Assembly: GCA_029968055.1 (NCBI GenBank)
Contig: JASCNX010000001.1
Span: 1,426,001-1,490,000 of the forward strand
Origin: Xenophilus aerolatus
GTDB lineage: Bacteria; Pseudomonadota; Gammaproteobacteria; Burkholderiales; Burkholderiaceae_C
Direction of reading: 5' to 3'
Length of the DNA: 64,000 bases
Shown here: positions 19,869 through 28,404 of the stretch, one piece after another
Numbering within the stretch: position 1 is the stretch's first letter
Layout: each line of letters opens with the position of its first letter
The notes under the pieces: generated by a model
Database searches by the model: none
The model's input: only the letters and a program-made list of their open reading frames with translations
What the model was told of the DNA's origin: nothing
Position numbers and translations under genes: made by a program

Positions 19869-20624
19869 TCAGCCATGGCGGCGGATCAGTTGCACGCCGG
19901 GCAGCGCGCCGCCGCCATCGCCGCGCACCGCATCGCGAAGGTTGCGCTGCGCGATGCGGCTGTGCTCGCGCATCAGCGCCTCGGCGCGGGCGCCCTCGCG
20001 GGCGGCAATGGCCTCCAGCACGCGGCGGTGCTGGTCCTGGGCCACGTAGAACATGTCGCGCGAGCGCGGCGAATGCGCCTGCACCACGACGAAGGCCGAG
20101 GGCGAGGCGAAGGGCTGGCGCACGGCGCGGTCGAGCTCGCGCGAAAGCACGCGGCTGTCGGCCATGCGGCCCAGCAATGCGTGGAAGCGCCCGTTGGCCT
20201 GCACGTAGCGCGAGAACTCGGCGTCGTCCAGCTGCGGCCGCGCCAGGGCGGCATCGATCTCGGCCAGCACGGCCTCGGCCTCGGCCATCAGGGCGGAGGG
20301 CACGCCCCGCTCCGCGGCCAGGCGCGCCATCAGGCCTTCCAGCGTGCCGCGCAGCTCGATGGCGTCGGCCACCTCGCGCTCGGAGAACGAGCGGACCGCG
20401 AAGCCGCCGTGCGGCAGCGCCTCGAGCAGGCCCTCCTGCTCCAGCTTGACCAGCGCCGCGCGGATCGGGGTGCGCGAGATGCCGAGCTTCTCCACGATGG
20501 CCACCTCGCCGACGCGGTCGCCCGGCGCCAGCTCTCCGGCCAACACCATCTCGCGCAGCTGCAGCTGCGCACGCAGGGCTTGCGAGCTTCCTTCCGGCAG
20601 CGGCGTGGGGTCGACGGGGGGCAT
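19869..20624 (-). CDS. GntR family (FCD domain) repressor of the van genes
   Basis: This is a FadR-subfamily regulator of 251 aa with an N-terminal winged helix (VGEVAIVEKLGISRTPIRAALVKLEQEGLLEALPHGGFAVRSFSE). An all-helical FCD effector domain follows, with the metal/ligand-type residues EFSRYVQANGRFHALLGRMADS and QHRRVLEAIAAREGARAEALMREH. It diverges from vanA, the arrangement of VanR in many proteobacteria. Two identical TGTATACA palindromes lie between the two genes. ATG 20624 (MPPVDPTPLPEG) is chosen because an ATG 39 nt upstream would place an operator inside the coding region. The expected inducer is vanillate. Confidence 0.88.
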   Translation of the reverse strand: MPPVDPTPLPEGSSQALRAQLQLREMVLAGELAPGDRVGEVAIVEKLGISRTPIRAALVKLEQEGLLEALPHGGFAVRSFSEREVADAIELRGTLEGLMARLAAERGVPSALMAEAEAVLAEIDAALARPQLDDAEFSRYVQANGRFHALLGRMADSRVLSRELDRAVRQPFASPSAFVVVQAHSPRSRDMFYVAQDQHRRVLEAIAAREGARAEALMREHSRIAQRNLRDAVRGDGGGALPGVQLIRRHG

Positions 20625-20639
20625 GCGACGGAGTCTAAA

Positions 20640-20647
20640 TGTATACA
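20640..20647. promoter_or_regulatory. GntR/VanR operator 1
   Basis: The perfect palindrome TGTATACA lies 16 bp upstream of the regulator's start and is part of AAATGTATACA. The same 11-mer recurs in inverted orientation at operator 2. It sits where it would cover the regulator's own promoter. Confidence 0.65.
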
Positions 20648-20713
20648 GTGCTCGATCAGTCATGCGATTTGATGCTCGTTTACCCTGATATATCGGCCAT
20701 TTGGCCCCATCGA

Positions 20714-20721
20714 TGTATACA
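20714..20721. promoter_or_regulatory. GntR/VanR operator 2
   Basis: A second TGTATACA, extended to TGTATACATTT, lies 52 bp upstream of the vanA ATG. Its centre is 74 bp from that of operator 1, close to seven helical turns. Binding to both could loop or co-repress the divergent promoters. Confidence 0.65.
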
Positions 20722-20772
20722 TTTTTGGGTCGCGTTTCGATAATCACGTCTCCATCCCGAAGAGCCCACACG

Positions 20773-21828
20773 ATGTTTCCCAAGAACACCTGGTACGTCG
20801 CCTGCACCCCCGACGAAATCGACGACAAGCCGCTGGGCCGCACCATTTGCGGCGAGGCGATGGTCTTCTACCGCGGCCGAGACGGCCGGGCCGTGGCGCT
20901 GGAAGACTTCTGCCCGCACCGCGGCGCGCCCCTCTCGCTCGGCGAGGTGTGCGACGGCCAGCTGGTGTGCGGCTACCACGGCCTGGTCATGGGCGAGGAA
21001 GGCAAGACCGTAGCCATGCCCGGCCAGCGCGTGCAGGCCTTCCCCTGCATCAAGCGCTTCGCGGTGGTCGAGCGCCACGGCTTCGTCTGGGTGTGGCCCG
21101 GCGACCAGCAGCAGGCCGACCCGGCCAAGATCCATGCGCTCGAATGGGCCGAGAACCCGGAGTGGGCCTACGGCGGCGGCCTGTACCACATCCAGGCCGA
21201 CTACCGGCTCATGATCGACAACCTGATGGACCTCACCCACGAGACCTACGTCCACAGCACCAGCATCGGCCAGAAGGAGATCGACGAGACCCCCGTCAAC
21301 ACCAAGACCGAGGGCGAGCAGGTGGTGACCAGCCGCTTCATGGACAACGTGATGGCCCCGCCCTTCTGGCGCGCCAACCTGCGCGGCAACGGCCTGCCCG
21401 ACGACCAGCCGGTGGACCGCTGGCAGGTCTGCCGCTTCACCCCGCCGAGCCACGTGATGATCGAGGTCGGCGTGGCGCTGGCCGGACACGGCGGCTACCA
21501 CGCGCCCAAGGACAAGAAGGTCTATTCGATCGTGGTGGACTTCATCACGCCCGAGACCGAGACCTCGCACTGGTACTTCTGGGGCATGGCGCGCAACTTC
21601 AACGTGAAGGACAAGGCGCTCACCGCGCAGATCCGCGAGAACCAGGGCAAGGTGTTTGCCGAAGACACGGCCGTGCTCGAAGCGCAGCAGCGCTCGCTGC
21701 TGGCCCACCCCGGCCGGCGCCTGCTGATGCTCAACATCGACGCCGGCGGCGTGCAGTCGCGCCGCGTGATCGACCGCATCCTGGCGGCCGAGCGCGCCAC
21801 CCAGCCCGCGGCGGAGGCCACGGCATGA
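20773..21828 (+). CDS. vanA: Vanillate O-demethylase oxygenase subunit VanA
   Basis: This Rieske non-heme iron oxygenase removes the methyl group of vanillate as formaldehyde, giving protocatechuate. The 351-aa protein (normal length) has the [2Fe-2S] ligands C47-x-H49 (FCPHRGAPLS) and C66-x2-H69 (VCGYHG). The mononuclear iron site lies in DNLMDLTHETYVHSTSIG (D, H, H). The N-terminus MFPKNTWYVACTPDEI is typical of VanA. vanB follows with ATGA overlap. Two GntR-type operators precede it. Related enzymes act on other methoxybenzoates, so veratrate- or syringate-type substrates are possible, but the VanR-VanAB layout favours vanillate. Confidence 0.93.
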   Translation: MFPKNTWYVACTPDEIDDKPLGRTICGEAMVFYRGRDGRAVALEDFCPHRGAPLSLGEVCDGQLVCGYHGLVMGEEGKTVAMPGQRVQAFPCIKRFAVVERHGFVWVWPGDQQQADPAKIHALEWAENPEWAYGGGLYHIQADYRLMIDNLMDLTHETYVHSTSIGQKEIDETPVNTKTEGEQVVTSRFMDNVMAPPFWRANLRGNGLPDDQPVDRWQVCRFTPPSHVMIEVGVALAGHGGYHAPKDKKVYSIVVDFITPETETSHWYFWGMARNFNVKDKALTAQIRENQGKVFAEDTAVLEAQQRSLLAHPGRRLLMLNIDAGGVQSRRVIDRILAAERATQPAAEATA

Positions 21829-22790
21829 CGATCGAGGTGCGCGTTCGCCGCAAGCGCGAAGTGGCCGAGGGCATCTGCGCCTTCGAGCTCGAGCGTGCGG
21901 ACGGCGGCGCCCTGCCCGCCTTCGGTGCCGGCTCGCACATCGACGTGCACGTGCCCGGCGGGCCGGTGCGGCAGTATTCCCTGAGCAACATCCACGGCGC
22001 GGACCCGGCCTCGCGCGGGCACTACCGCATCGCCGTGCTGCGCGAGCCCGCGTCGCGCGGCGGCTCGGCAGGCATGCACGAGAAGGTGAACGAAGGCGAC
22101 CTGCTGACCATCGGCGGGCCGCGCAACCACTTCCCGCTGCACGACGCGCCGCGCAGCCTGCTGCTGGCCGGCGGCATCGGCGTCACGCCCATCCTGTGCA
22201 TGGCCCAGCGGCTGGCTGCATGGGGCGCCGATTTCGAGATGCACTACTGCACCCGCTCGGCGGCCCGCACGGCCTTCCGTGACGAGATCGCAAGCAGCCC
22301 CTTTGCCGACAACGTGCACTTCCACCACGACGATGGCGACGACGCGCAGAAGCTGCGTGCGGCCGAGCTGCTGGCCCATCCCGAGCCGGGCACCCAGGTC
22401 TACGTCTGCGGCCCGGGCGGCTTCATCGACCACGTGATGGGCGTCGCCAAGGCCCAGGGCTGGCCGGCGAACCAGCTGCACACCGAGTACTTCACCGCCG
22501 CCGCGCAGGACACCTCGGGCGACCAGCCCTTCCAGGTCAAGCTCACCAGCAGCGGGCAGACCTACGCCGTGCCCAAGGACCGCAGCGTGGTCGAGACCCT
22601 GCGTGCCCACGGCGTGGAGGTGATGACCGCCTGCGAGCAGGGCGTGTGCGGCACCTGCCTCACGCGCGTGCTCGAGGGCACGCCGGACCACCGCGACGTC
22701 TACCTCACCGACGAGGAGAAGGCCGCGGGCGACCAGTTCCTGCCCTGCTGCTCGCGCGCGAAGACGCCGCTGCTGGTGCTGGACCTCTGA
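21825..22790 (+). CDS. vanB: Vanillate O-demethylase reductase subunit VanB
   Basis: This is the electron-transfer partner of VanA, a class IA reductase passing NADH electrons through FMN and a plant-type ferredoxin. Within 321 aa the domains are in order: FMN-binding barrel with RQYSLSN (50-55), NAD-binding domain with GGIGVTPIL (116-124) and VYVCGPGGF (193-200), and a C-terminal [2Fe-2S] domain. The cluster cysteines are C270, C275, C278 and C308 (ACEQGVCGTC...CC). The start codon overlaps the vanA stop (ATGA), so the two subunits are coupled. Confidence 0.95.
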   Translation: MTIEVRVRRKREVAEGICAFELERADGGALPAFGAGSHIDVHVPGGPVRQYSLSNIHGADPASRGHYRIAVLREPASRGGSAGMHEKVNEGDLLTIGGPRNHFPLHDAPRSLLLAGGIGVTPILCMAQRLAAWGADFEMHYCTRSAARTAFRDEIASSPFADNVHFHHDDGDDAQKLRAAELLAHPEPGTQVYVCGPGGFIDHVMGVAKAQGWPANQLHTEYFTAAAQDTSGDQPFQVKLTSSGQTYAVPKDRSVVETLRAHGVEVMTACEQGVCGTCLTRVLEGTPDHRDVYLTDEEKAAGDQFLPCCSRAKTPLLVLDL

Positions 22791-24080: not shown

Positions 24081-24142
24081 CTCAGCGCGCGGGAAGGATT
24101 CGGGGCAGCAGATGCCCATGGATGTGCGAAGCTCCGCCACCG

Positions 24143-25516
24143 ATGCTCCATTCCTTCGCGCCCTGGCTGCCCAGCGTTTCCCAGCACTTCCTGGTGGTGG
24201 CCATCGCGCTGCTGGTCTACGTGCTGACCACGCGCGCCCGGCGCGAGCAGCGGGCGCCGACCAGCGCCATCGCCTGGGTGCTGGGCATGCTGCTGATGCC
24301 CTACCTCGCGCTGCCGGCCTACCTGGTCTTCGGCCAGCGCAAGCTCCGGCCGGCAGGCGTGCCCCGACCACCCCGCGCCGCGCCGGCCGGCCACTGGGCG
24401 GCCGAGCTGGTCGACAGCTTCGGCCTGGCCGCGCCCAGCCGCTGCGCGATTCACCTGCATCCCGACGGCACGGCCGCGCGCGATGCGCTGTGGACGGTCA
24501 TCGACGGCGCGCAGCGTTCGCTGGACGTGTGCACCTTCATCATCGGCGACGACGAGATCGGGCAGGAAGTGGTGCGCCGCCTGGCCGCACGCGCGCGCCA
24601 GGGCGTGCGGGTGCGGGTGCTGCTCGACGGCTTCGGTGCGCTGTCGCTGCCGCGCCGCTACTTCGACACGCTGCGCGAGGCGGGCGGCCACGTGAGCGTG
24701 TTCCGGCCGCTGTTCAGCCTGCGGCGCACCGGGCCGCGCAACCTGCGCAACCACCGCAAGTTCACCATTGCCGACGACCGCTGGCTGTGGAGCGGCGGCC
24801 GCAACCTGGCCGGCGAGTACTTCACCGGCAACGCCGCCCACCCGGTGCCGTGGCGCGACCTGTCCTTCGACATCCGCGGCGACGTGGCCGCCGCCGCGGC
24901 GCGCCAGTTCGAGCACGACTGGGCCTCGGTGCGGCGCACGGCGGCGCGCGTCGTGCCGCCGCAGCCACCGGTGCACGAAGGGCAGCTCGCCCAGTTCCTG
25001 CCCAGCGGGCCCGACCAGACCGAGGACACGGCGCAGGCGCTGCTCGTCGACGCGTGCTTCCGCGCCGAGCACCGCATCCTCGCCATCACCCCGTACTTCG
25101 TGCCGGGCGACAGCCTGCGCGATGCGCTGCGCCTGGCGGCCCGGCGCGGCGTGCAGGTGACCGTCGCCGTGCCGCAGCAGTCCAACCACCGGCTGGCCGA
25201 CTTCGTGCGCAGCCGCGCCATGCGCGACCTGGCGCGCGCCGGCGTGGCCTTCCGCATGCTGCCCTTCATGGCCCATGCCAAGGCGGTGGTGGTCGACCAC
25301 GACCTGGCGATGTGCGGCTCGATCAACCTCGACCTGCGCAGCCTGCTGCTGAACCACGAGGCGGCCGTCGTCTTCTACGGCACCGAGCAGGTCGACTGGC
25401 TCAGCGGCTGGATCGAGACCACCGCCTCCGCCGGGGACACCTACCGCGCCCGCCAGCCCGGCCTGGTGCGCGACCTGGCCGAAGGGCTGCTGCTCACGCT
25501 GGCCTTCCAGCTCTGA
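24143..25516 (+). CDS. Phospholipase D-like cardiolipin synthase
   Basis: This is a membrane-anchored PLD-superfamily phosphatidyltransferase, probably making cardiolipin from phosphatidylglycerol. The 457-aa protein has two N-terminal hydrophobic helices (FLVVAIALLVYVLTT and AWVLGMLLMPYLALPAYLVFG), as in ClsA-type enzymes. Two HKD motifs follow: HRKFTIADD starting near H204 and HAKAVVVDHDLAMCGSINLD starting near H378. The family usually has HxKx4Dx6GG/S, which both copies satisfy. ATG 24143 (MLHSFAPW) is preferred to an upstream ATG at 24122. The gene is single, convergent with the ROK-like gene. Confidence 0.88.
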   Translation: MLHSFAPWLPSVSQHFLVVAIALLVYVLTTRARREQRAPTSAIAWVLGMLLMPYLALPAYLVFGQRKLRPAGVPRPPRAAPAGHWAAELVDSFGLAAPSRCAIHLHPDGTAARDALWTVIDGAQRSLDVCTFIIGDDEIGQEVVRRLAARARQGVRVRVLLDGFGALSLPRRYFDTLREAGGHVSVFRPLFSLRRTGPRNLRNHRKFTIADDRWLWSGGRNLAGEYFTGNAAHPVPWRDLSFDIRGDVAAAAARQFEHDWASVRRTAARVVPPQPPVHEGQLAQFLPSGPDQTEDTAQALLVDACFRAEHRILAITPYFVPGDSLRDALRLAARRGVQVTVAVPQQSNHRLADFVRSRAMRDLARAGVAFRMLPFMAHAKAVVVDHDLAMCGSINLDLRSLLLNHEAAVVFYGTEQVDWLSGWIETTASAGDTYRARQPGLVRDLAEGLLLTLAFQL

Positions 25517-25517
25517 G

Positions 25518-25552
25518 CCGCGCCGGCCTCACTCGGCCGCCGGCCGGCGCGG
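25518..25552. terminator. Hairpin between convergent genes
   Basis: CCGCGCCGGCC (25518-25528) pairs perfectly with GGCCGGCGCGG (25542-25552). It spans the 3' ends of the PLD gene and the ROK-like gene, overlapping the latter's last codons. No T-tract is present, so any termination role is uncertain. Confidence 0.45.
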
Positions 25553-26668
25553 GGTGGTGTTGAGGTAGCTCGCGTTGCCCAGCCCGGTGCCGATGGTCAG
25601 CACCGCCCAGCGCTTGACGTCGCGCATGAAGGGCACCTCGCTCAGGCCCTGCACCACGGCGTCGTTGTGCATCAGGACCTGGGTCGCGTCCTGGCCGATC
25701 ACGGACATCTTCTCGCGCAGCGCCGTCGGCAGGTGGAAAGTGTCGGCCGCCCAGTTGCCGGGCAGGTTCTGCGCGCCGCGGGCGATGGTGCCGTCGGAAC
25801 GGATCAGGCCCGGGCAGGCGATGCCCACGAAGGGCGCGAGGCGCAGGCCCTCGCGCTCGGCCCACACCACCATGTCGGCCAGCATGGCGACCAGCCCGTC
25901 GACCAGCCCGGTGCGGCTGGGCTCGTCGTCCGCGTGGCGCCACTTGGTGCGCCGCACGACCTTGGCGCGCGACAGGTCCTCGGCCTTGTCGCGGCGGAAC
26001 TTCACGATGCCGCAGCGCACGTTGGTGCCGCCGATGTCCAGCGCGAGCAGCGCGTCGTGGTGCTCGATGAAGTGCGGCGGCGCCAGGTGCACCCAGCCGA
26101 TCAGGCCGCCGTCGTCGACCTCGTGGCGCAGGCGTCCCAGCTCCACCGGCAGCTCGGCGGCATGGCACAGCGCCGCCGCCTCCAGGATCGCGCGTTCGCC
26201 CACGTCGCTCTCGGGAAAGCCGCCGCCGACCACGATGCGCTGGATGCCGTGCCAGGCCTTCTGGCGCATGAAGCGCTGGATCACCTGGGCGAGCTCGACC
26301 GCGAACTCCTCGATGGCACCGTGCAGGATGTCGCTGGCCTCGGCGTTCATCTTGCCGCGCAGCGCGCGGTCCAGCGTCTTCTTGGTCAGCGCGGCCGAAG
26401 GCAGGTTGCCCAGCGGGTCCTTGCGGCCCTTGTCGCGATGGCGCTTGCGCCAGGCGTCGACGAGCTGGCGGAAGGCCGTCTGGCTGGCCCGGTCGCCGAT
26501 GAAGCCGTGGTCGTCCTGCACCTCCAGGTTGTAGCTGGTGATCCGCACCTCGGCGAGCTCGGTCACGCCATGGTGGGCGCCGACGATGCTGGGCGCGGGT
26601 GCCTTGCGCGGGCGCTTGCGGGGTGTCGACGACGGGGCTGTCTTGGAGGGGGTCTTGCGTGTGGCCAT
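25529..26668 (-). CDS. ROK-like kinase with apparently circularly permuted motif order
   Basis: This 379-aa protein belongs to the ASKHA/ROK sugar-kinase superfamily by its motifs: phosphate-1 loop ALDIGGTNVRCGIVKF (209-224), ROK-type IACPGLIRSDGTI (283-295) with NLPGNW (301-306), acidic MHNDAVVQG (333-341) and TIGTGLGNA (358-366). In usual ROK proteins DIGGT is near residue 10 and a GGG adenosine motif closes the protein. Here the GGG-like segment RIVVGGGFPESDVGERAI occurs first (144-161) and DIGGT starts at 211, while the protein ends just after GTGLGNA. This is the order expected from circular permutation. The first 25 residues are Lys/Pro/Arg-rich. The ROK zinc-binding CxC motif is absent. 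Substrate is unknown. Confidence 0.75.
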   Translation of the reverse strand: MATRKTPSKTAPSSTPRKRPRKAPAPSIVGAHHGVTELAEVRITSYNLEVQDDHGFIGDRASQTAFRQLVDAWRKRHRDKGRKDPLGNLPSAALTKKTLDRALRGKMNAEASDILHGAIEEFAVELAQVIQRFMRQKAWHGIQRIVVGGGFPESDVGERAILEAAALCHAAELPVELGRLRHEVDDGGLIGWVHLAPPHFIEHHDALLALDIGGTNVRCGIVKFRRDKAEDLSRAKVVRRTKWRHADDEPSRTGLVDGLVAMLADMVVWAEREGLRLAPFVGIACPGLIRSDGTIARGAQNLPGNWAADTFHLPTALREKMSVIGQDATQVLMHNDAVVQGLSEVPFMRDVKRWAVLTIGTGLGNASYLNTTPRRPAAE

Positions 26669-26820: not shown

Positions 26821-28404
26821 ATGCCGATCCTCTCGCGGCCCTGGCGGCCGGGCGTCCTGCCCCCCGAGTCCGCGCGCGCGCTCAAGCGCGCCCTCACCCT
26901 GCCGATGCTGCTGGCCCTGCTCCTGCTCATCCTGGCCCGCGGCGCGTGGGCCGCCGACGAGGGCACGCTGCGCATCGGCTCCAAACGCTTCACCGAGTCG
27001 TACATCCTGGCCGAAGTGCTGGCGCAGACGGCCGCGCCGCAGCTCTCGCAAGCCCCCGTGGTGCGCCAGGGGCTGGGCAACACGGCCATCGTCTACGAGG
27101 CGCTGAAGAGCGGCGGCATCGACCTCTACGCCGAGTACACCGGCACCATCGCGCTGGAGATCCTCAAGAGCTCGCAACCCTTGTCGCGCGACGCGATGCA
27201 GGCCGCGCTGCAGCCGCTGGGCCTGGGCATCGCGATCCCGCTGGGCTTCAACGACGGCTATGCCTTCGCCATGCGCGCCGACGAGGCCAGGCGCCTGGGC
27301 GTGCGCTCGCTGAGCGACCTGGCCCGTCACCCGGAGCTCAAGCTCGGCCTGTCGAACGAATTCATCGGCCGCGCCGACGGCTGGCGCGGCGTGGCGGCGC
27401 GCTACGGCCTGCCTCAGTCACCCACCGGCCTGGACCACGGCATCGCCTACGACGCCATCGCGGCGAAGCAGGTGGACGTGATCGACATCTACACCACCGA
27501 CGCCAAGATCGACCACCTGGGCCTCACGGTGCTCGAGGACGACCGCGGCTACTTCCCGCGCTACGACGCGGTGGTGCTGTACCGGCTCGACGTGCCGCAG
27601 CGGTTGCCGCAGGCCTGGGCTGCGCTGCGCAAGCTCGAAGGCCGCATCGACGAGCACGCCATGATCGGCATGAACGCACGCGCCGAGCTGCAGGGCACGG
27701 GCTTTGCCACCATCGCGCGCGACTTCCTTTCGGGCGGCGGCCAGGGCGCGAGCGGCGGTGCGGCCGCGGGCTTCATGGCCAAGCTCTTCGGGCCCGACCT
27801 GCCGCGGCTCGCGCGCCAGCACCTCGTGCTGGTGGCCGTCTCGGTGGGCGTGGCCACGCTCGTCGGTGTGCCCCTGGCGGTGTGGGTGTTCCCGCACCTG
27901 CGTCTGCGCGCCCTGGTGCTGGGCGCCACCGGGCTGCTGCAGACCGTGCCGTCCCTCGCGCTGCTGGCGGTGCTGATCTCGCTGCTCGGCGCCATCGGCA
28001 CGCTGCCGGCGCTCATCGCGCTCACGCTGTACTCGCTGCTGCCGATCATGCGCAATGCCGTCACCGGCCTGGCCGAGGTGCCGGTGGGCGTGAAGCAGGC
28101 CGGCACGGCACTAGGCATGACCGGCGCACAGAACCTGCGGCTGGTGCAGTTGCCGCTGGCGCTGCCCACGCTGCTGGCAGGGATCCGCACCGCCAGCACC
28201 ATCGCCATCGGCACCGCCACCATCGCGGCGTTCATCGGCGCGGGCGGCTTCGGCGAGCGCATCGTGACCGGCCTCGCGCTCAACGACCGCGCGCTGCTGC
28301 TGGCAGGCGCCGTGCCCGCCGCCGTGCTGGCGCTGGCGAGCGAGGCGCTGTTCGAGCTGCTGGAGTGGCTGCTTCGCCGCCGCCAGCGCGCTGCGGCCGC
28401 ATGA
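26821..28404 (+). CDS. Osmoprotectant (glycine betaine/choline type) binding protein fused to its permease
   Basis: The 527-aa product joins an OpuAC-type binding domain (about 40-310) to an ABC permease domain (about 330-520). The binding domain begins after a hydrophobic signal/anchor (LPMLLALLLLILARGAWA) with TLRIGSKRFTESYILAEVL and includes the ligand-loop pattern DLYAEYTGT. The permease has about five helices and the EAA-type loop EVPVGVKQAGTALGMTGAQNLRLVQLPLALP. No ATPase (OpuCA/ProV) gene adjoins, so it must be elsewhere. The binding domain precedes the permease, opposite to many known fusions. It overlaps the next gene by ATGA. TATAAA lies only 8 bp before ATG 26821; a leaderless message or a later start is possible. 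Confidence 0.87.
   Translation: MPILSRPWRPGVLPPESARALKRALTLPMLLALLLLILARGAWAADEGTLRIGSKRFTESYILAEVLAQTAAPQLSQAPVVRQGLGNTAIVYEALKSGGIDLYAEYTGTIALEILKSSQPLSRDAMQAALQPLGLGIAIPLGFNDGYAFAMRADEARRLGVRSLSDLARHPELKLGLSNEFIGRADGWRGVAARYGLPQSPTGLDHGIAYDAIAAKQVDVIDIYTTDAKIDHLGLTVLEDDRGYFPRYDAVVLYRLDVPQRLPQAWAALRKLEGRIDEHAMIGMNARAELQGTGFATIARDFLSGGGQGASGGAAAGFMAKLFGPDLPRLARQHLVLVAVSVGVATLVGVPLAVWVFPHLRLRALVLGATGLLQTVPSLALLAVLISLLGAIGTLPALIALTLYSLLPIMRNAVTGLAEVPVGVKQAGTALGMTGAQNLRLVQLPLALPTLLAGIRTASTIAIGTATIAAFIGAGGFGERIVTGLALNDRALLLAGAVPAAVLALASEALFELLEWLLRRRQRAAAA

Follow-up and report, generated by a model that had tools for sequence, protein, structure and literature searches.

The permuted gene and its genomic surroundings

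The 64,000-nucleotide stretch of Xenophilus aerolatus DNA that was analysed (referred to below as the window) carries on its reverse strand an open reading frame with an ATG start (positions 25529-26668) that encodes a protein of 379 amino acids. On the basis of this reading frame, its Pfam match to the ROK family and an alignment of its homologues, we annotate the whole gene as that of a circularly permuted ROK-type kinase. The Pfam profile of the ROK family (PF00480) matches residues 208-373 to profile positions 2-144 of 294, with a score of 38.4 bits (the cut-off is 22.9), and the front half taken alone has no Pfam match above its cut-off. A first-pass annotation of the window had pointed to a motif order that is rotated relative to that of usual ROK proteins, and both this order and the individual motif positions are borne out exactly by the reading frame. 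The adenosine-type GGG motif, with its three glycines beginning at residue 148, lies within RIVVGGGFPES (residues 144-154; positions 26207-26239, reverse strand), the phosphate-1 motif DIGGTNVR follows from residue 211, NDA starts at residue 335, and GTGLGNA occupies residues 360-366, with GTGLG itself at 360-364, after which only 15 residues are left to the C-terminus.

The Lys/Pro-rich N-terminus to which the same annotation drew attention is present as well. Residues 1-30 (26579-26668, reverse strand) form a basic, proline-rich and variable tail that is predicted to be disordered, with pLDDT values below 50 in the AlphaFold2 model. This tail is not a family-wide trait, since in three annotated rhizobial homologues merely 9-17 residues precede the conserved part, which starts at residue 31-33 of the window protein. 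The permuted protein is also not the sole ROK-type protein of its genome, because a six-frame PF00480 search of this genome, which did not list the permuted gene, returned three other genes that span the profile.

The gene is flanked by a divergently oriented gene for an OpuAC substrate-binding domain fused to an ABC permease (osmoprotectant transport; 26821-28404, forward strand) and by a convergently oriented gene for a PLD-domain, cardiolipin synthase-like protein (24122-25516, forward strand), both assigned through Pfam. Many loci from Comamonadaceae share this arrangement. When neighbouring genes, called by a simple rule based on GC content by codon position, were clustered, the OpuAC-permease cluster was present somewhere in 55 of the 84 loci and the PLD-domain cluster in 44. 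Elsewhere, the family gene is found next to a trehalose phosphatase gene (one Rhizobium record and one further genome), a peptidase gene of the NAGGN system (one Sinorhizobium record), or genes for an FGGY kinase and a DUF2934 protein (another genome); in Bradyrhizobium algeriense (L091) and several other genomes it adjoins what we take to be rplU or rplU-rpmA, and the remaining loci have unrelated neighbours. Several of these neighbours are osmolyte genes. Membership in a general-stress regulon is nevertheless unsupported: the neighbours differ, and the consensus motif of the EcfG type has a strict match in only one of the 31 placeable upstream stretches (35 loci listed, some duplicated). We therefore draw no functional conclusion from the neighbours. 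Further away in the window, at 20701-21828 and about 21828-22790, are look-alikes of a Rieske-type oxygenase and its reductase, perhaps a vanillate demethylase pair, with a gene for a GntR-like regulator (19869-20846) on the opposite strand.

A family of permuted genes in soil and plant-associated bacteria

The gene is one of a whole family whose members are carried by bacteria living in soil or in association with plants. Homologues were found in every one of the 14 further genomes from the genus, in two of 21 additional ones from the family, in none of 24 from the order, and in 22 of the 398 genomes sampled across the phylum. Searches of genome contigs gave 400 related stretches, of which the best 80 were retained, and homologues were present in 206 plasmid records, 111 of them from Rhizobium and 79 from Sinorhizobium. 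Where 20 matches of the plasmid homologues were listed, 17 carried the name 'ROK family protein' and three had no listed gene; a second set of 30 matches comprised 14 genes named ROK, one 'hypothetical protein', one remnant, 13 places without a listed gene and one unannotated record. No internal stop codons interrupt the gene at 17 places in related genomes, nor at 24 places in the phylum sample, and at all 18 family places that were located separately by each half of the protein, the front and back halves share one reading frame.

The family alignment (A1) holds 107 distinct proteins (125 before the removal of duplicates), distinct meaning no more than non-identical, and most of them come from Comamonadaceae. 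The succession of GGG, D[IL]GG[TS] and GTGxG is kept in 105 of these 107 homologues, and the two exceptions (L054 and L119) fail on the regular expression only, since D211, G213 and G214 are retained in every member. Between 7 and 55 residues (median 13) follow GTGxG in all 107 proteins, compared with 159-183 in the 29 of 30 canonical ROK proteins that have this motif; the canonical set used here and below consists of 30 ROK proteins among the best PF00480 matches, one from the genome of the window and 29 from others in the phylum. A tree of 55 thinned rows, rooted at its midpoint for drawing only, falls into two main groups: the named members of the first are mostly alphaproteobacteria, together with one gammaproteobacterial metagenome-assembled genome, and those of the second are mostly Comamonadaceae.

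The independent occurrence of the gene in so many genomes bears on the possibility that its architecture is an artefact of the gene model or of the assembly, that is, a chimera, a frameshift or a truncated neighbour. Nothing beyond the unusual motif order speaks for such an artefact, and the 400 contig stretches, the 206 plasmid records, the lack of internal stops and the conserved order refute it; we regard its probability as negligible.

Some deviating copies were encountered in the same surveys. Two genomes of the phylum sample (G257 and G273) each contain two full copies of the permuted gene (L175, L176, L177, L178). In G257, a frame of 97 amino acids on contig C151 aligns over 30 residues with the beginning of the front-half profile (167219-167308), approximately 3.6 kb from the full copy near L175. 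A remnant-like back half lies on a plasmid of Bradyrhizobium barranii (L188:3001-3417), mostly between small annotated genes, and matches at 36% over residues 234-376. Five further places (G063:C101, G118:C5, G074:C4, G114:C9 and G110:C12:280929) match PF00480 on its first half only (profile positions 2-163 at most) within open frames of 395-467 amino acids; these could be repressors that have diverged, or ROK proteins altered in some other way.

Profile evidence for a circular permutation

The comparison of the family with canonical ROK proteins was carried out with hhalign, using a family profile built from the 107 sequences (Neff 2.5); the E-values given here refer to a single pair of profiles. 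Two matches cross each other. Residues 205-371 align with canonical positions 4-145 (E 1.5e-6), and residues 86-197 (26078-26413, reverse strand), the counterpart of the C-terminal part of ROK proteins, align with canonical positions 193-296 (E 9.4e-5, or 3.9e-5 with the front half alone), the GGG of the front half being in register. The gap that separates the two matches, residues 198-204 (26057-26077, reverse strand), marks the putative point at which the old termini were joined, C-terminus to N-terminus. Scored separately against the canonical ROK profile, the front half reaches 39.2 and the back half 52.7, and 30 unrelated decoy profiles built from neighbouring genes reach at most 19.9 and 20.7, respectively.

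When the family profile is rotated to start at residue 205, the two matches merge into a single collinear one of 281 columns that covers positions 6-296 of 297 with a score of 65.0. The corresponding scores are 51.9 for the natural order, 51.8 for a front half with shuffled columns and 51.5 for a reversed front half (one shuffle each). A scan of the cut point in steps of six residues gave scores of 59.8-65.9 for all 11 cuts between 151 and 211, against 51.9 for the natural order; among the scan rows listed (17 of 58 plus the natural order), 277-283 columns were aligned only at cuts 199, 205 and 211. In the control scan of canonical against canonical proteins the peak is at cut 0, i.e., without any rotation. 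The choice of canonical sequences influences the gain in score: when the canonical set was split, one half gave 71.6 for the rotated and 57.0 for the natural profile, and the other 36.7 and 36.8, that is, no gain, with the rotated profile aligning about 280 columns of both subsets.

With HMMER, rotation raises the scores only a little. Rotation of the window protein itself turns its PF00480 match into one stretch that covers profile positions 2-291 of 294 at 40.5 bits, a gain of 2.1 bits over the 38.4 bits of the natural order, and shuffling of the front half in the rotated protein reduces the match to 2-144 and 30.9 bits. The homologues L108 and L118 gain 0.1 and 0.2 bits, respectively, and both still match in two stretches. 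With a HMMER profile of the 30 canonical sequences, the rotated protein scores higher than the natural one in 76 of 107 cases, with a small median gain of 0.3 bits, and in 105 of 107 cases a rotated protein scores higher with its true front half than after this half has been shuffled. When the rotated protein was compared with the PDB by phmmer, its match to polyphosphate/ATP-glucomannokinase 1woq still covered the first part only and was no longer than before, and the front-half profile found no ROK protein in the PDB by sequence.

Predicted structure and the probable location of the cut

An AlphaFold2 model of the protein, computed from an alignment of 20 rows, has a pLDDT of 82 and a pTM of 0.78. 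Residues 205-352 (25613-26056, reverse strand) correspond to the canonical N-lobe, as judged by Pfam, by hhalign and by the order of the predicted strands and helices, and contain the first RNase H-like unit: the elements between 206 and 342 run bbbababa (adjacent helices counted as one), which is the order given for the RNase H-like core in the text of PMC1079889. The remaining elements are a strand (41-46), helices, a strand (144-149), a helix, a strand (176-179) and further helices in the front half, and two strands (353-359 and 366-370) that follow unit 1. A second bbbababa unit is obtained from the predicted elements only when 353-370 is read ahead of 41-203. This second unit is thus complete only with the chain closed into a ring, which places the cut between its second and third strands, and strand 41-46 is taken as the third strand of the C-lobe sheet in the model.

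The cut predicted from the model differs from the one originally envisaged, in which the entire C-terminal lobe had been moved to the front and the lobes met at residues 205/206. The permutation as such stands, on the strength of the crossing matches, the effect of rotation, the order kept throughout the family and the model, but a clean swap of the lobes does not. Residues 353-371 (25556-25612, reverse strand), the GTGLG hairpin with its predicted strands 353-359 and 366-370, which falls within the back-half hhalign match, represent C-lobe strands 1 and 2 and have stayed at the back of the protein, at its new C-terminus; the proposed lobe boundary is therefore wrong, and the model places the cut inside the C-lobe.

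Among the 50 rows listed by Foldseek for the full model, none exceeds a TMq of 0.32. Tandem hexokinases I and II take the first eight places (373-444 columns, rmsd 31-37 Å), and the single ROK proteins in this list align over 133-179 columns. Tandem hexokinases contain the order C-lobe then N-lobe within their tandem pair, but they differ from the window protein in that each chain consists of two complete kinases and the single unit is not permuted. We read their rows as the probable trace of a C-lobe that runs into an N-lobe. This reading is indirect: the Foldseek output comes without aligned ranges, and two other groups are aligned in plain order too, in both cases with a TMq of 0.30 or less, namely exopolyphosphatases over 286-316 columns (rmsd 8.5-9.9 Å) and MreB over 294-321 columns (rmsd 15.6-17.1 Å). 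The front half folded alone has a pLDDT of 70 and retrieved nothing at an E-value of 0.001 or better with Foldseek; the ROK rows 3mcp and 3vgk have a TMq of 0.39 with E-values of 0.74 and 2.2. Such a poor fold would fit a modelled lobe that lacks two strands of its sheet, and we do not count it as positive evidence.

These properties of the front half are also what one would expect if half a ROK kinase, consisting of the N-lobe and the GTGLG hairpin, had acquired, by fusion, an N-terminal domain of unrelated origin whose GGG sequence is coincidental: the front half has no above-cut-off Pfam match, no sequence relative in the PDB and no significant fold match of its own. Against such a fusion stand the match of the front-half profile to the canonical C-terminal part, about twice the score of the best decoy and with GGG in register, the nearly complete coverage of the rotated Pfam match, and a predicted strand order that completes a second RNase H-like unit. 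We hence consider the fusion highly improbable, and the protein very probably is a natural circular permutant of a ROK-type sugar kinase of the actin/hexokinase fold.

Active site, missing motifs and possible function

The residues of the motifs are invariant. D211, G213, G214, N216 and R218 of DIGGTNVR (211-218; 26015-26038), H334, N335 and D336 of HNDA (334-337; 25658-25669), G360, T361, G362 and G364 of the GTGLG hairpin, and G148-150 of the GGG motif are identical in 107/107 family members (all on the reverse strand), which suggests strong selection on the ATP site and the catalytic base. The roles of these motifs are assigned according to established knowledge of ASKHA kinases. In the folded protein, two RNase H-like lobes would still enclose ATP between them, with D211xGG and GTGLG contacting the phosphates, GGG 148-150 holding the adenosine, and D336 serving, by analogy with ROK kinases, as the catalytic base.

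Two motifs of canonical ROK proteins are missing. The sugar-binding motif ExGH and the zinc motif CxCG, the latter marking the ROK signature region, each occur in 29 of the 30 canonical proteins and in 0/107 family members, and the canonical stretch that carries both (146-192) has no confident counterpart in the family profile according to hhalign. Residues 31-85 of the window protein (26414-26578, reverse strand), located directly after the new N-terminus, likewise have no confident profile counterpart, and by conservation and predicted structure they stand in the place of this stretch. They are well conserved in their own right, with H33, F56, G58 and F66 in 107/107 members and D59 in 106. 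Since residues 31-85 are located where the sugar-binding and zinc region belongs, a specificity other than that of canonical ROK kinases is to be expected, and we infer that the substrate pocket was rebuilt at the site of the permutation. Our reading by analogy is that of an active ATP-dependent kinase of altered specificity, whose substrate is probably a sugar or a sugar-like alcohol that would be phosphorylated with ATP; because ExGH and CxCG are absent, the substrate and even the activity itself are proposed by inference.

The loss of both motifs throughout the family would also suit a permuted protein that is no longer a kinase but a sensor or regulator of ROK descent, with a nucleotide or a sugar bound as its ligand and not turned over. 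In favour of this, some ROK proteins are repressors, and no neighbouring gene is common to the lineages examined. The full retention of D336, of D211, G213 and G214, of GTGLG and of GGG argues against it, as does the lack of a helix-turn-helix domain among the Pfam matches; on balance, we regard a pure sensor as unlikely, and we favour a permuted kinase.

A narrower proposal on its substrate would be that of a permuted polyphosphate/ATP glucokinase, a special case of the ROK permutant that shares part of its probability. In a single-sequence search, the solved structure closest to the back half is that of the polyphosphate/ATP-glucomannokinase 1woq (E 7.6e-4), and the polyphosphate glucokinase model NF045942 is the top NCBIfam row. 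However, both are unpermuted, the window protein scores 24.4 bits against the NF045942 cut-off of 250 and thus falls far below that family, and the profile of alignment A1 places nine other chains above 1woq. This assignment is, in our view, still less likely than that of a sensor.

Relationship to known kinases and proposed origin

The family resembles the ROK family (PF00480; e.g., glucokinase, N-acetylmannosamine kinase and allose kinase) in its DxGGT, PG, ND, GTGxG and adenosine GGG motifs and, once rotated, in its collinearity across nearly the whole profile. It differs in that its C-terminal part comes first, in the missing ExGH and CxCG motifs, and in residues 31-85, for which no confident counterpart was seen. 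By its profiles, the family would descend from ROK kinases, and it may be expected to work like them. It should, however, not be filed as an ordinary member of the ROK family, since it departs from it in the order of its parts and in two sequence motifs.

Usually, permuted proteins arise through duplication of a gene, fusion of the copies and loss of the outer parts. For the family described here, the most likely course is that an ancestral ROK gene was duplicated in tandem and fused, after which the leading part of copy one and the trailing part of copy two would have been lost. The new ends would then lie in the loop between C-lobe strands 2 and 3, and the old ends would have been joined near residues 198-204. 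Each half was also searched for separately in 299 genomes of a single phylum, with at most 11 or 12 candidates per genome scored, and neither a duplicated nor an unpermuted intermediate was seen. The front-half profile (A3) detected the 18 family places and the 30-residue match in the 97-amino-acid frame described above. The back-half profile (A4) detected the same 18 places with E-values below 1e-66. Beyond these it gave only 21 weak hits, in open frames of 205-413 amino acids (19.4-23.6 bits, E 8e-5 to 1e-3), and five of them are also matched by PF00480.

A permuted ROK or hexokinase-fold kinase was not found described in the portion of the open-licence literature that was covered. The kinase cores within one fold group may, according to PMC1079889, be related to each other by circular permutation; in its main text neither 'ROK' nor 'circularly permuted' appears, and its two passages on permutation name no case of the hexokinase fold. 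We tentatively propose, as a possibility that falls somewhat short of an even chance, that this family is the first naturally occurring circular permutant among ASKHA kinases to be described, and that its new N-terminus has replaced the sugar-binding zinc region so that the protein acts on a substrate that no known ROK kinase uses.

Implications

For the annotation of genomes, the existence of this family means that some rhizobial and Variovorax-like genes that bear the label 'ROK family protein' encode proteins without the ROK sugar-binding motifs, so that assignments as glucokinase may be wrong there. If the permuted proteins are functional, a widely inherited permutation would imply that the two-lobed sugar-kinase fold tolerates re-wiring of its hinge, its ATP site and the order of its RNase H-like halves. 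The family would then offer a natural experiment on the folding and closure of ASKHA enzymes.
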